NCBI GenBank assembly: GCA_025359625.1
Contig: JANYFT010000413.1
Coordinates: forward strand, 1 to 47,696
Direction of reading: 5' to 3'
From: Ferruginibacter sp.
GTDB lineage: Bacteria; Bacteroidota; Bacteroidia; Chitinophagales; Chitinophagaceae
DNA: 47,696 nt
Below, piece after piece: positions 23,780-47,654 of the stretch. The translations under genes and the position numbers were made by a program. The first letter of the stretch is position 1. Every line of letters starts with the position of its first letter. The notes under the pieces were generated by a model. It was given only the letters and a program-made list of their open reading frames with translations. It was not told where the DNA came from and did not search any database.

Positions 23780-23815
23780 AAAACGGCCATCTTTTTCAAA
23801 TGGCCGTTTTGCTTT
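23780..23815. terminator. Bidirectional terminator between korB-like gene and asd
   Basis: AAAACGGCCAT (23780-23790) and ATGGCCGTTTT (23800-23810) form an 11-base stem with a nine-base loop. Convergent genes on both sides use it. The T-run is better on the minus strand (for asd). Confidence 0.88.
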
Positions 23816-23841: not shown

Positions 23842-24831
23842 TTACACCAAGCCCTTTTCCATCAAATACTCTGCAATCTGCACTGCATTTGTAGCAGCAC
23901 CTTTTCGCAGGTTATCGCTCACTATCCAGCAATTTAATGTATTGGCCTGGGTTTCATCTCTTCTTATCCTGCCAACAAAAGTTTCATCTTTTTCATGAGC
24001 AGTTAACGGCATCGGGTAAATAAAATTGGCAATGTCATCCTGTACTACAACACCCGGCGCTTTGCTTAAAAGATCTCTCAGTTCATCCAAATCAAAATCA
24101 TTTTCAAACTCAATATTTACACTTTCGCTGTGGCCGCCCATTACAGGGATACGGACTGTAGTGGCTGTCACTTTTATAGCGGCATCACCTATGATCTTCA
24201 CAGTTTCATGCGTCATTTTCATTTCTTCCTTGGTATAGCCATTTGCTAAAAACACATCTATTTGCGGAATGGCATTCAGGTCAATCGGGTATTTGTAAGC
24301 CATCTCTCCTTCTATACCTTTTCTTTCATTCATTAATTGTTCAACTGCTTTAACACCAGTGCCGGTAACACTTTGATAAGTTGATACCACTACCCTTTTG
24401 ATCTTGTATCTATCATGCAATGGTTTTAATACTACTACCATTTGAATCGTAGAGCAGTTGGGGTTGGCTATAATTTTATCTTCTTTTGTAAGCACATTGG
24501 CATTTACTTCCGGCACCACTAATTTTTTTGTTGGGTCCATCCGCCATGCGCTGGAGTTATCAATTACCGTGATACCAGCTTCGGCAAAAAGAGGGGCCAG
24601 CACTAAGGAGGTACCACCACCGGCAGAAAAAATGGCAATGGCAGGTTTTGCCGCAATAGCATCTTCGTAACCCACTACCTTATATTTTTTTCCTTTAAAT
24701 TCTACTTCCTTACCAATTGATTTTTCAGAAGCAACAGGAATAAGTTCGGTTACCGGAAAATTTCTTTCGGCCAACACCTGTAACATTTTAGTGCCTACCA
24801 AACCGGTAGCTCCAACTACAGCAACTTTCAT
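23842..24831 (-). CDS. asd: Aspartate-semialdehyde dehydrogenase
   Basis: A 329-residue enzyme that reduces aspartyl phosphate to aspartate semialdehyde, the branch point to lysine and diaminopimelate, threonine, methionine and isoleucine. The NADP site is VVGATGLVGTKML at the N-terminus. The catalytic Cys is Cys126 in IANPNCSTIQ. The substrate- and catalysis-related stretch TATTVRIPVMGGHSESVNIEF contains the family Arg and His. The length is normal. It is transcribed alone, ends at the bidirectional terminator 23780-23815, and is preceded by a Lys/Thr-rich leader ORF and attenuator-like hairpins at 24898-25024, pointing to control by aspartate-family amino acids. Confidence 0.96.
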   Translation of the reverse strand: MKVAVVGATGLVGTKMLQVLAERNFPVTELIPVASEKSIGKEVEFKGKKYKVVGYEDAIAAKPAIAIFSAGGGTSLVLAPLFAEAGITVIDNSSAWRMDPTKKLVVPEVNANVLTKEDKIIANPNCSTIQMVVVLKPLHDRYKIKRVVVSTYQSVTGTGVKAVEQLMNERKGIEGEMAYKYPIDLNAIPQIDVFLANGYTKEEMKMTHETVKIIGDAAIKVTATTVRIPVMGGHSESVNIEFENDFDLDELRDLLSKAPGVVVQDDIANFIYPMPLTAHEKDETFVGRIRRDETQANTLNCWIVSDNLRKGAATNAVQIAEYLMEKGLV

Positions 24832-24897: not shown

Positions 24898-24986
24898 GGA
24901 AGGGCAAAATAAAACCTTCCGTTTTGGCGGAAGGCTATGTATATTTTGAAACAAACAAAACACTGATTTACCTTCCGCTGCCGGAA
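24898..24986 (-). promoter_or_regulatory. Attenuator-like hairpins upstream of asd
   Basis: On the minus strand five complementary blocks follow in order. Block 1 is TTCCG (24986-24982). Block 2 is GCGGAAGG (24978-24971), within the end of the leader ORF. Block 3 is CCTTCCGC (24934-24927), block 4 is CGGAAGG (24921-24915), and block 5 is CCTTCC (24903-24898). Blocks 3 and 4 form a hairpin followed by TTTTATTTT (24914-24906), an intrinsic terminator. Blocks 2 and 3 can form an eight-base antiterminator instead, leaving 4 to pair with 5. Blocks 1 and 2 form a pause-type hairpin. The asd ATG lies about 75 bases beyond. Confidence 0.75.
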
Positions 24987-25024
24987 TGTTTCTTTGTTGT
25001 TTTAGTATGTTTTATCATCACCAT
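24968..25024 (-). CDS. Lys/Thr-rich leader peptide of asd
   Basis: An 18-residue frame, MVMIKHTKTTKKHSGSGR, with an ATG start and TAA stop. Of its first 12 residues, ten are Met, Ile, Lys or Thr, all products of the pathway that runs through aspartate semialdehyde. If charged tRNA is short, a ribosome would stall on the Lys/Thr run, leaving block 2 free to pair with block 3 and so prevent the terminator. If it reaches the stop codon it would cover block 2 and let the terminator form. A promoter box ends only six bases before the ATG. No other gene fits this 340-base gap; a 74-codon frame on the plus strand is not convincing. Confidence 0.65.
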   Translation of the reverse strand: MVMIKHTKTTKKHSGSGR

Positions 25025-25030
25025 TGAAAA

Positions 25031-25061
25031 CGAAAATAGTTACTATTTAATAATCAGCCAA
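25031..25061 (-). promoter_or_regulatory. Candidate promoter of the asd leader
   Basis: TTG (25061-25059) and TATTTTCG (25038-25031), 20 bases apart, match the Bacteroidota consensus with one mismatch in the -7 box. The box ends six bases before the leader ATG, so the leader peptide would be translated from a leaderless or nearly leaderless mRNA. Confidence 0.5.
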
Positions 25062-25171
25062 ACATTCAGCTAAAATAATTAATTGAACTTTTAAAGGGCG
25101 CTATTCTTTACGGAGGTAAAGTGAGTAGGGATTAATAAAGTAAGTATCTTTAAAATTACCTACAATTGATT

Positions 25172-27805
25172 ATGATTAAACGAATACTACTTTATCTGCC
25201 GGTTTTATTAGTCTTCAATTTAATAGCCAGGGCACAATTTTCTGAAAATTTTGTTGATGGTGATTTTTCCGGGAACCCTGCATGGACAGGTGGTACAGGC
25301 GATTGGATCATTAATATATCTGGTCAGTTACAAAGTAATAACACTGTTGCCAACAGCAGTTTTTATTTATCTACAGCTAATACACTGGTTACTACTGCAC
25401 AATGGGAATTTTATACCAATCTTACATTTGCTACTTCAGGCTCAAACTATGTGGATGTTTATTTAACTGCTTCAGTAAGCGACCTTACTGCTATCAGCAC
25501 AGCTGGCTATTTTGTTCGTATTGGTAATACAGCAGACGAAATTAGCTTGTACCGGAAAGATGCAGGGATTGCTGCTGGTATCAAAATAATTGATGGTGCA
25601 GATGGTTCGGTAAGCAGCTCTATAAATAACCAGGCAAAAATAAAAGTAATCAGGGATGCGAATAACCAATGGACATTATTGCGTGACATAACAGGAACAG
25701 GCAATAGTTATTTTAGTGAAGGAAATGTAACCGATGCCACTTTTACAACTTCTTCTTTTTTCGGTTTTCTTGTAAAACAGAGCACTGTAACCAGTTTTGC
25801 ACAAAAACATTTTTTTGATGATATTGAGGTGAAGGCTTATGTACCAGATACCGCACCGCCAGTTATTCAATCCGCAACAGTAACATCTGCCAGTACATTG
25901 GATATATTATTTAATGAGCCAGTAGATAATACAACCAGCCAGGCCATAGCGAATTATGTAGCCAATAATTTGGCCGCATCTCCGGCCACCGCAATATTAG
26001 ATGGAGCCAATACCGCATTAGTCCATCTTACTTTTACCAATAATTTTTCCAGTGGAATAAATTATTTGCTAACTGTAAATGGCGTAAAAGATCTGTCGGA
26101 TAATGCCCTTGTAAATGCAACGACACCGTTTATTTATTTTGCTCCTTACACGGCTCAGCAATATGATGTAGTGATAGACGAAATAATGAGCGACCCAACA
26201 CCACAAGTAACATTGCCCAATACCGAATGGATAGAATTAAGAAATACTTCCACATCAGCCATTAACCTGCAGGATTTTAAAATAAGCGACCGTACAAGTG
26301 TAAGCGGCGCCATGCCCCATTTTATTTTAAAGCCAGATAGTTTTGTAATTGTTTGCAGCAGCAGTGCCGTTGCAGCAATGGCGCCGTTTGGAACAACAAT
26401 ATCGGTTACCAGTTTCCCTTCGCTGGATAATGATGGTGATCAGTTGTCGCTTATTTCATCACAGGGAAAAATTATTCATGCGGTTAATTATACCGCTGCC
26501 TGGTATCAAAACGAATTAAAGAAAGATGGGGGATGGACGCTTGAAATGACCGATACCAAAAACCCTTGTTCGGGCATCCGCAACTGGAAAGCAAGCACCG
26601 ATTTGAGAGGTGGTTCGCCCGGTAGCAAAAATGCAACAGATGCTGTTAATACAGACAATGGGGCACCCAGATTGTTAAGGGGGTATGCAACAGATAATGT
26701 AAATATTACGTTGGTTTTTGATGAACCATTAGACAATCTTAAAGCTGCCAATACAACCAATTATACAATCAGCGGGGGTATAGGTTCGCCCATTGCTGCG
26801 GTTATGCTGTCACCGGTTTTTGATAATGTAAACTTACACCTGGCTACCCCATTGCTTGCTTCAAAAGTATATACCATTACAGCCACTGGTGTTACCGATT
26901 GTGTGGGCAACGCAATCGGTACAAAAAATACTGCAAGGGTTGGGCTTAGCGTTGTAGCCGATAGTCTTGATATTGTGATCAATGAAATTTTATTTAACCC
27001 ACCACCAGCGGGAAGCGATTATGTTGAAATTTATAACCGCAGTAACAAGATAATTGATCTTAAGCAAACCTATATTGCCAACCGTGGTATCAATGGCGCC
27101 ATTGGCAGTATTACACAAATAGCTGCCGAAAACTACCTTTTATTTCCGCAGGATTTCATGGTGTTGACCCCTGACATACCTTACGTGAAAGCTGCCTTCA
27201 TCAATCAAAACCCCGATGCCTTTATAACTTCCCATCTGCCTTCTTTTAATGATGATAAAGGTAGTGTGCTTATTTTAAATGCACAGGGTACTATAACAGA
27301 TGAATTAACTTATAGCGATAAATGGCATTTTAAATTATTGGATAATAAGGAAGGCGTAGCCCTGGAAAGGATTGATTACAATGCGCCAACCCAATCTGCA
27401 GACAACTGGCATTCCGCCGCTACCAGCACAGGTTATGGCACACCCACGTATAAAAATTCACAGTACCGGATAAACGATGGTATGCAGGGTGAGATAAAAT
27501 TATCACCTGAAATCGTATCACCAGACAATGATGGCCAGGACGATTTTGGTACGCTTGAATATGATTTTCCGGAACCGGGGTACGTGGCTAACATTACGAT
27601 TTTTGATGCTTCGGGCAAACGGGTGCGTTACTTGCAGCGCAATGCACTATGTGGCACAAAAGGCAATTTTAGATGGGATGGATTAGGAGAAAAAAATCAA
27701 TCGTTGGCAATTGGTGTTTATATTGTGTACGCAGAAATTTTCAACCTTAAAGGAAAAACAAAACAATTTAAAATACCCATTGTATTAGCGAGGAGAAATC
27801 AGTAG
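25172..27805 (+). CDS. Secreted lamin-tail-domain surface protein
   Basis: An 877-residue exported protein with a signal peptide (IKRILLYLPVLLVFNLIARAQ). Modules in order: a jelly-roll-like region (about 20-205); an Ig-like SbsA-type domain (APPVIQSATVTSASTLDILFNEPVD); a lamin-tail domain (VVIDEIMSDPTPQ, NTEWIELRNTS); a second Ig-like domain (APRLLRGYATDNVNITLVFDEPLD); a second lamin-tail domain (IVINEILFNPPPAGSDYVEIYNRS); and a C-terminal FlgD-like/gliding-type beta domain (GVYIVYAEIFNLKGKTKQFK). It is probably a cell-surface or extracellular adhesion or scaffold protein. The signal suggests export and the C-terminus resembles T9SS-linked proteins, but I cannot confirm T9SS use. The ATG at 25172 gives the best signal peptide. 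Confidence 0.85.
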   Translation: MIKRILLYLPVLLVFNLIARAQFSENFVDGDFSGNPAWTGGTGDWIINISGQLQSNNTVANSSFYLSTANTLVTTAQWEFYTNLTFATSGSNYVDVYLTASVSDLTAISTAGYFVRIGNTADEISLYRKDAGIAAGIKIIDGADGSVSSSINNQAKIKVIRDANNQWTLLRDITGTGNSYFSEGNVTDATFTTSSFFGFLVKQSTVTSFAQKHFFDDIEVKAYVPDTAPPVIQSATVTSASTLDILFNEPVDNTTSQAIANYVANNLAASPATAILDGANTALVHLTFTNNFSSGINYLLTVNGVKDLSDNALVNATTPFIYFAPYTAQQYDVVIDEIMSDPTPQVTLPNTEWIELRNTSTSAINLQDFKISDRTSVSGAMPHFILKPDSFVIVCSSSAVAAMAPFGTTISVTSFPSLDNDGDQLSLISSQGKIIHAVNYTAAWYQNELKKDGGWTLEMTDTKNPCSGIRNWKASTDLRGGSPGSKNATDAVNTDNGAPRLLRGYATDNVNITLVFDEPLDNLKAANTTNYTISGGIGSPIAAVMLSPVFDNVNLHLATPLLASKVYTITATGVTDCVGNAIGTKNTARVGLSVVADSLDIVINEILFNPPPAGSDYVEIYNRSNKIIDLKQTYIANRGINGAIGSITQIAAENYLLFPQDFMVLTPDIPYVKAAFINQNPDAFITSHLPSFNDDKGSVLILNAQGTITDELTYSDKWHFKLLDNKEGVALERIDYNAPTQSADNWHSAATSTGYGTPTYKNSQYRINDGMQGEIKLSPEIVSPDNDGQDDFGTLEYDFPEPGYVANITIFDASGKRVRYLQRNALCGTKGNFRWDGLGEKNQSLAIGVYIVYAEIFNLKGKTKQFKIPIVLARRNQ

Positions 27806-47580: not shown

Positions 47581-47654
47581 TGGGCCCACCTGGGCTCGAA
47601 CCAGGGACCACCTGATTATGAGTCAGGTGCTCTAACCAACTGAGCTATAGGCCC
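47581..47654 (-). tRNA. tRNA with CAU anticodon, probably tRNA-Ile2
   Basis: A full 74-base cloverleaf including the discriminator A: acceptor stem GGGCCTA with TGGGCCC, D-arm GCTC-AGTTGGTTA-GAGC, anticodon arm CCTGA-CTCATAA-TCAGG and T-arm CCTGG-TTCGAGC-CCAGG. CCA is not encoded. The CAU anticodon could mean elongator Met or Ile read through lysidine. The pairs C4-G69 and C5-G68 match those TilS prefers in E. coli tRNA-Ile2, whereas E. coli tRNA-Met has U4-A69 and A5-U68, so I favour Ile2. Confidence 0.93.

Follow-up and report, generated by a model that had tools for sequence, protein, structure and literature searches.

The asd gene codes for an enzyme at a branch point from which lysine, threonine, methionine and isoleucine are made, and the region upstream of it in this genome raises the question of how the aspartate pathway may be controlled in these Bacteroidota. 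An earlier note, made from the sequence alone, had proposed an attenuator with a leader peptide rich in Met, Ile, Lys and Thr. Having compared the region with those of relatives, we assign a probability of about 0.88 to the reading that the asd leader is a ribosome-mediated transcription attenuator, which would be a concrete and testable answer.

The asd leader and its parts

In the window, that is, the whole stretch of 47,696 nucleotides that was analyzed, asd (23842–24831; Pfam PF01118 and PF02774) encodes an aspartate-semialdehyde dehydrogenase of 329 aa and is the gene proposed to be regulated. It lies on the minus strand, as do all the features of the leader. Reading that strand from 25062 to 24906, we find in order a promoter, an 18-codon ORF, block 2, a 33-nt spacer, and a terminator hairpin with a T-rich tail. 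The promoter is of the Bacteroidota type (25031–25062), with TTTG at 25062–25059, a 20-nt spacer, and the −7 box TATTTTCG at 25038–25031. The leader ORF, MVMIKHTKTTKKHSGSGR (24968–25024), runs from an ATG at 25024 to a TAA stop at 24970–24968. Its codons 5–12, KHTKTTKK, are the control codons and at the same time an RNA strand that we call segment A (24989–25012). Then come segment 1, TTCCG (24982–24986), a potential partner of block 2 in a small hairpin, and block 2 itself, GCGGAAGG (24971–24978), the antiterminator strand, which runs up to the stop codon. Segment A′ (24948–24963) lies in the spacer beyond the stop; we recognized it by its co-evolution with the control-codon strand in relatives. 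Block 3, CCTTCCGC (24927–24934), is common to antiterminator and terminator. Block 4, CGGAAGG (24921–24915), and the tail TTTTATTTT (24914–24906) make up the 3′ half of the terminator (24906–24921).

The promoter, ORF, blocks 2 to 4, T-rich tail and asd described in the earlier note are all present on the minus strand and agree base for base, as does its count of 10 Met, Ile, Lys or Thr among the first 12 leader residues. As expected of an attenuator, a short ORF rich in codons for the pathway end products lies between promoter and gene, and an intrinsic terminator lies between ORF and gene.

The terminator stem has 7 Watson-Crick pairs, or 9 counting the flanking G-U and A-U, and the T-rich tail ends ~75 nt before asd. 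The 130-nt leader folds better than 200/200 dinucleotide shuffles (z −3.76), and its minimum-energy fold includes the antiterminator pairing of blocks 2 and 3 (2:3). A consensus scan for terminator-like sites in 6 kb finds 9, the asd-leader terminator among them, where 5.6 would be expected by chance, and for this reason our case rests on conservation. A terminator-like hairpin 3′ of asd (23780–23810, minus strand), seen in the consensus scan only, is consistent with a single-gene transcript. We also observe a possible second terminator at 24921–24891, in which block 4 could pair with a downstream CCTTCC (24903–24898) followed by seven T; it is not conserved.

A predicted, almost leaderless start

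Transcription of the leader is predicted to start near 25026, ~2 nt before the ATG, because the −7 box, TAnnTTTG, is placed at −12 to −5 in Flavobacterium psychrophilum (PMC9723704). This start, like the pairing of A with A′ described below, is absent from the earlier note. The spacing recurs in relatives. Among the 89 non-redundant leaders defined in the next section, 78 have a strict TAnnTT[TC]G box whose end is 2–14 nt from the first ATG, and these distances peak sharply at 7–8 nt; over the rest of the upstream 200 nt such boxes are rare, save for a small cluster at 35–39 nt (10). The implied 5′ UTR is ~4 nt (median), so that the transcript is predicted to be almost leaderless. For F. psychrophilum, the reported share of leaderless mRNAs is 5.5% (PMC9723704); for Bacteroides thetaiotaomicron, 5′ UTRs shorter than 10 nt are put at about 3.7% (PMC7366714). 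Our prediction suggests a regulatory use for this kind of translation, reported rare in the phylum, where ribosome loading must be immediate.

Conservation among relatives

We found asd in 186/195 Chitinophagaceae genomes and took the upstream regions of the best-scoring 110 of the 186 matches, our own included (30 + 80 loci). By script, 101/110 of these regions have a short ORF with a terminator behind it. After dropping a false match (L027) and a region with a misassigned ORF (L013, whose leader is MLKMKHTKQIQK...), 99 remain, and removal of near-identical leaders leaves the 89. Among the 9/110 regions that the script did not match, one (L124) has a leader with a GTG start. For 80 named loci, the script matched 26, of which five were false by eye (L091, L098, L101, L106 and L108), leaving 21, to which inspection by eye added L056. 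As an example, the leader of the cultured Niastella yeongjuensis DSM 17621 (L060) is MQVIKKHTKTTKTSSIHGEG; another cultured relative with the element is Limnovirga soli KCS-6 (L041). The peptide motif kept before asd is KHTK(R/T)xKK, in ORFs of 13 to 24 codons.

A covariance model built from 58 leaders, whose search is independent of the choice of the best 110 asd matches, matches 242/394 Chitinophagaceae genomes in 71/101 genera at E 1e-6 or better; 152/394 (~39%) have no match at that cutoff. Searching at the level of the order, no match below E 1e-6 falls outside Chitinophagaceae among the matches listed. At the level of the class, the element is found in 10/198 genomes outside Chitinophagaceae, from five other families, and in the 8 of these 10 loci that were examined it precedes asd (8/8). 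The leaders there read MIMDQHKKCGKKRFHNGEGC, MKMICKNKKHDKKLFHSGKGN, MMIKKIKCAKKLFR (in two genomes), MKMICSKKCMKKPVR and MNISCMKRKMKKPLL, with one frame ending MKRKMKKPSGYRKGN; in L370 the script chose MERIIVFYTKK, and MKNFKSIKQLNKPFL sits at the start of the model.

Within our own genome, the copy before asd is the one strong match. The next, at 28.5 bits, falls on the opposite strand of that very site. Of the weaker matches, the five that were examined (L249–L252, L259) show no leader with Lys and Thr.

The divergent neighbor of asd in the window (25166–27805, plus strand) encodes a protein with a lamin-tail domain and Ig-like character and a subthreshold match to a type IX secretion tail. 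By tblastn, this gene or a similar one lies near asd in several loci that have no leader (L006, L142, L147 and L182 in Chitinophagaceae; also L032, L034 and L037).

Competing pairings and their co-evolution

RNAalifold on a MAFFT alignment recovers the terminator, with changes on both sides in 4/7 of its pairs, and no other pairing. It saw the terminator alone because the register of A′ varies between species, and we therefore used swap tests, in which pairing partners are exchanged between species (89 leaders, 5000 permutations); these tests ignore kinship, and the values that follow are to be read with that in mind. The terminator pairing of blocks 3 and 4 (3:4) co-evolves with z −21.1 (0/5000 permutations), and the antiterminator 2:3 with z −6.8 (0/5000). 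The latter is what an attenuator would need, an antiterminator with one strand in common with the terminator and preserved by co-evolution. Coordinated change can be seen by eye in L047, where blocks 2, 3 and 4 have changed jointly to GGGGCT, AGGCCCC and GGGGC. The earlier note had staked its reading on conservation of the ORF and paired blocks in relatives; peptide motif, terminator and antiterminator are all conserved with coordinated change, and the reading has survived.

A further pairing, between the control codons and the post-stop spacer (A:A′), also co-evolves, with z −9.9 (0/5000; an ungapped version of the test gives z 6.8), against z −0.2 for a negative control of block 2 with the spacer. 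Unusual A strands match their own A′: in L188, L131, L128 and L163 the true partner ranks 1, 2, 7 and 1 of 89. In the window itself A:A′ is weak (rank 28/89; 0.05 expected pairs). Judged across species, the co-evolution of A:A′ is clear. How it stands to 2:3 can be pictured in two ways. A true pseudoknot with 2:3 is sterically feasible, with median loops of 21, 6 and 16 nt (84/89 leaders without overlap). Alternatively, A:A′ may be nested around a hairpin of segment 1 with block 2 (1:2), and be exclusive with 2:3.

Two smaller pairings had also been proposed. The segments of the 1:2 hairpin, a candidate for the protector that would hide block 2 when no ribosome is present, are indeed in the window, and its comparative support is modest, since z is −2.7, reached by 18/5000 permutations, with z −1.6 for a 1:3 control (89 leaders). 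The alternative of block 4 with a downstream block 5 (4:5) is likewise present in the window, and in relatives it does not rise above chance (12/89 vs. 15/89 with shuffled downstream DNA), so that we do not retain it.

The proposed switch in a folding model

The proposed mechanism is as follows. Since transcription would start ~2 nt before the leader ATG, a ribosome would load almost at the 5′ end. When charged Lys-tRNA is scarce (in Chitinophagaceae probably Thr-tRNA too), the ribosome would stall at codons 5–12, leaving block 2 free to pair with the emerging block 3; no terminator would form, and asd would be transcribed. With an adequate supply, the ribosome would reach the stop and cover block 2, blocks 3 and 4 would pair, and transcription would end at the T-rich tail.

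We examined this by constrained equilibrium folding of the 89 leaders with the ribosome at the stop, stalled, or absent. The mean probability of the terminator is 1.00 with the ribosome at the stop, 0.97 for the free leader, and 0.64–0.65 when the A site holds codons 7–8; for the leader of the window the corresponding values are 1.00, 0.39 (a mixed state) and, stalled, 0.01. In 87/89 leaders the model gives the terminator a higher probability for a ribosome at the stop than for one stalled at codons 7–9, which is the geometry of an attenuator. Before block 4 is made, the free leader is expected to form 6.6 pairs of 2:3, the leader with a stalled ribosome 8.8, and that with a ribosome at the stop 0.6; the stalled value exceeds the free one in 87/89 leaders. 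By these terminator and 2:3 values the model reproduces the classical logic, although species vary widely. The terminator shift exceeds 0.3 in just 49/89 leaders at the best codon and in 36/89 averaged over codons 7–9, and for that reason, as far as the model goes, kinetics must help beyond equilibrium folding.

What A:A′ does is harder to say. Our guess is that it may favor termination when the leader carries no ribosome; the folding model gives no support to this. In the ribosome-free model, a scrambled spacer brings no gain in 2:3 pairing (6.59 natural vs. 5.84 scrambled pairs; natural lower in 33/89), and since scrambling slightly lowers it, A:A′ has no role as a clamp in the model.

The ribosome-free state bears on another explanation, that attenuation depends on leader translation in general (initiation, Rho, or the coupling of transcription to translation) and not on stalling at particular Lys and Thr codons. 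An almost leaderless ORF could well make the switch sensitive to initiation, and in the window the ribosome-free state of the model differs from both of the others. We still consider this explanation unlikely, because codon identity follows the pathway, with Lys at asd and dapA and His at hisG.

Which amino acids the leader would sense

The codon table of the 89 leaders gives a clear picture of which amino acids are kept. Every leader has at least 3 Lys codons (89/89). Column 17 is Lys in 80/89, encoded by AAG in 43 and AAA in 37, and Lys fills column 20 in 77 leaders and column 21 in 78. Thr is present in 81/89, twice or more in 66/89, and missing from 8/89; at column 19, 47 leaders have Thr, written with any of the four ACN codons, and 20 have Ile. 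The Lys plus Thr fraction is 0.385 in frame and 0.242 when the nucleotides are shuffled; the other two frames give 0.111 and 0.251. Lys codons interchange between AAA and AAG, and Thr uses all ACN codons or gives way to Ile, and therefore selection acts on the amino acid. At columns 14–16, AAA CAT ACA, there is little synonymous variation, in a strand that pairs with the post-stop spacer, and this part of the codon conservation is probably due to A:A′ pairing and not to the peptide. As judged from the aligned leaders, the constraint on the control codons is one on both amino acid and RNA.

Lys is probably the main signal, because the leaders outside Chitinophagaceae are Lys-rich with little Thr: those chosen by script, together with L062, hold 43 Lys and 2 Thr in total. 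As a refinement of the fourfold Met/Ile/Lys/Thr signal that had been proposed, Lys looks like its core and Thr like a feature of Chitinophagaceae. From the few independent lineages at hand, we infer that Lys is constant, Thr a trait of Chitinophagaceae, and Met and Ile frequent elsewhere.

The same conservation could be that of a metabolite- or protein-binding riboswitch, an aptamer for lysine or another ligand in which the ORF is incidental. The strong conservation at the RNA level, which extends to the His codon CAT and to codon bias within A, and the extra conserved pairing A:A′ would both fit an aptamer. An aptamer would not account for the AAA/AAG and ACN changes that preserve the amino acid, or for an ORF that varies between 13 and 24 codons. 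Moreover, in a scan of the window with Rfam 15, tRNA alone reaches its gathering threshold (RF00005, a tRNA gene at 47581–47654, minus strand), and in nine related loci scanned at a relaxed threshold no family except tRNA reaches its own; the lysine riboswitch and the T-box are presumably among the 4227 families scanned. Taken together, we regard a riboswitch as very improbable.

A constitutive terminator, for instance of an upstream or antisense transcript, next to an accidental ORF is barely credible: chance terminator-like sites are common at the rate given above, but the upstream gene is divergent, so that no transcription is expected to enter the leader from there, and the ORF is conserved jointly with the promoter spacing and the 2:3 pairing.

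Related leaders before dapA, hisG and thrA

Two or more matches to the covariance model occur in 21 genomes. In the 7 where a further copy was examined, six copies lie before dapA, a lysine-branch gene confirmed by Pfam DHDPS (L241, L261, L262, L264, L266 and L268), and one, L274, lies at a contig end. The dapA leaders carry KHTK[RQ]VKK in five cases and KNTKRSKK in one; the first Thr and the Lys stay, and the second Thr becomes Val or Ser. At the best dapA match in each of 16 genomes, our own included, there is no ATG-started ORF with the Lys/Thr motif, and the link to dapA is therefore limited to few genera.

Weak matches to the model led to His-rich leaders before hisG. By script, 13/15 hisG loci have one, and G126 has one in another locus (L245); our own hisG sits at a contig end. 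These His-codon leaders, for example MKTFAHTHHHHFLPQG, have the same plan (L305, L308–L319, L245, L246, L248 and L257). In these leaders block 2 reads GGTAAGCC or much the same, and in most of them it contains the stop codon. Pairing of the His codons with the spacer gives z −2.5 (34/5000), and a mean of −14.4 vs. −7.9 kcal/mol for shuffled spacers (17 leaders).

By eye, there are Thr-rich short ORFs before thrA in at least 10/16 genomes. The loci in question (L320–L335), before a fused aspartokinase/homoserine dehydrogenase, have Thr/Ile-rich ORFs, one ending STTTTTTTTTR; behind the ORFs come a hairpin resembling ACAACCCGTTAAGGGTTGT and then CATATCACC...GGGC, and no U-tract terminator is listed further on. 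The script finds a U-tailed hairpin in 4/16 thrA loci, in each case inside or upstream of the ORF region. The thrA leader is perhaps translational or of the Rho type.

A wider reading, put forward tentatively and at slightly less than even odds, which the want of model support for an A:A′ clamp has lowered, is that Bacteroidia use a common design of almost leaderless leader-peptide attenuators whose control codons also form a conserved pairing strand. The asd peptide would be a combined sensor, reading Lys always together with a lineage-specific second product (Thr in Chitinophagaceae, Met/Ile-rich elsewhere), the dapA copies would drop the second Thr, and versions with His codons would serve hisG. 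If this were true, running short of a single end product among several would be enough to open the shared asd step.

Comparison with known systems

The comparative genomics of attenuation by Vitreschak et al. in 2004 reportedly predicted attenuators also in Bacteroidetes/Chlorobi. As far as the cited texts go, attenuation has been proposed for Bacteroidota in a general way: leader-peptide attenuation is placed upstream of amino-acid biosynthesis operons in F. psychrophilum (PMC9723704), and sORFs in long 5′ UTRs are described in B. thetaiotaomicron, where leader-peptide attenuation is noted (PMC7366714). These cases share the phylum and the proposed mechanism with ours, and the texts cited name no asd or Lys leader. 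Nor did a search of the open-access literature, which took in PMC4833913, PMC2965389, PMC7366714 and PMC9723704, bring up an asd or Lys leader in Bacteroidota.

The Rfam family Thr_leader (RF00506) is also a leader of the threonine pathway, and one relative (L012) aligns to its full model with 30.3 bits and an E-value of 0.045. That score is below the 55-bit threshold, the window has no match, and the asd leader, unlike Thr_leader, is Lys-rich. The lysine riboswitch, which binds its ligand directly and has no ORF, is alike in the lysine-dependent control of the same pathway, and has no Rfam match in the window.

The closest likeness is to the leaders of the enterobacterial thr, his and trp operons, which are controlled by ribosome-mediated attenuation. 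They too have a short ORF with codons for the end product, a 2:3 antiterminator, a 3:4 terminator, and a ribosome at the stop that masks block 2. The asd leader differs from them in its predicted almost leaderless start, in the gene it precedes (asd, or dapA), in having Lys as its core codon, and in that its control codons pair with the spacer beside block 2 and not with block 2 itself. Ribosome-mediated attenuation itself is classical; what is new, on the comparative evidence given here, is a candidate attenuator at asd that is almost leaderless and centered on Lys.
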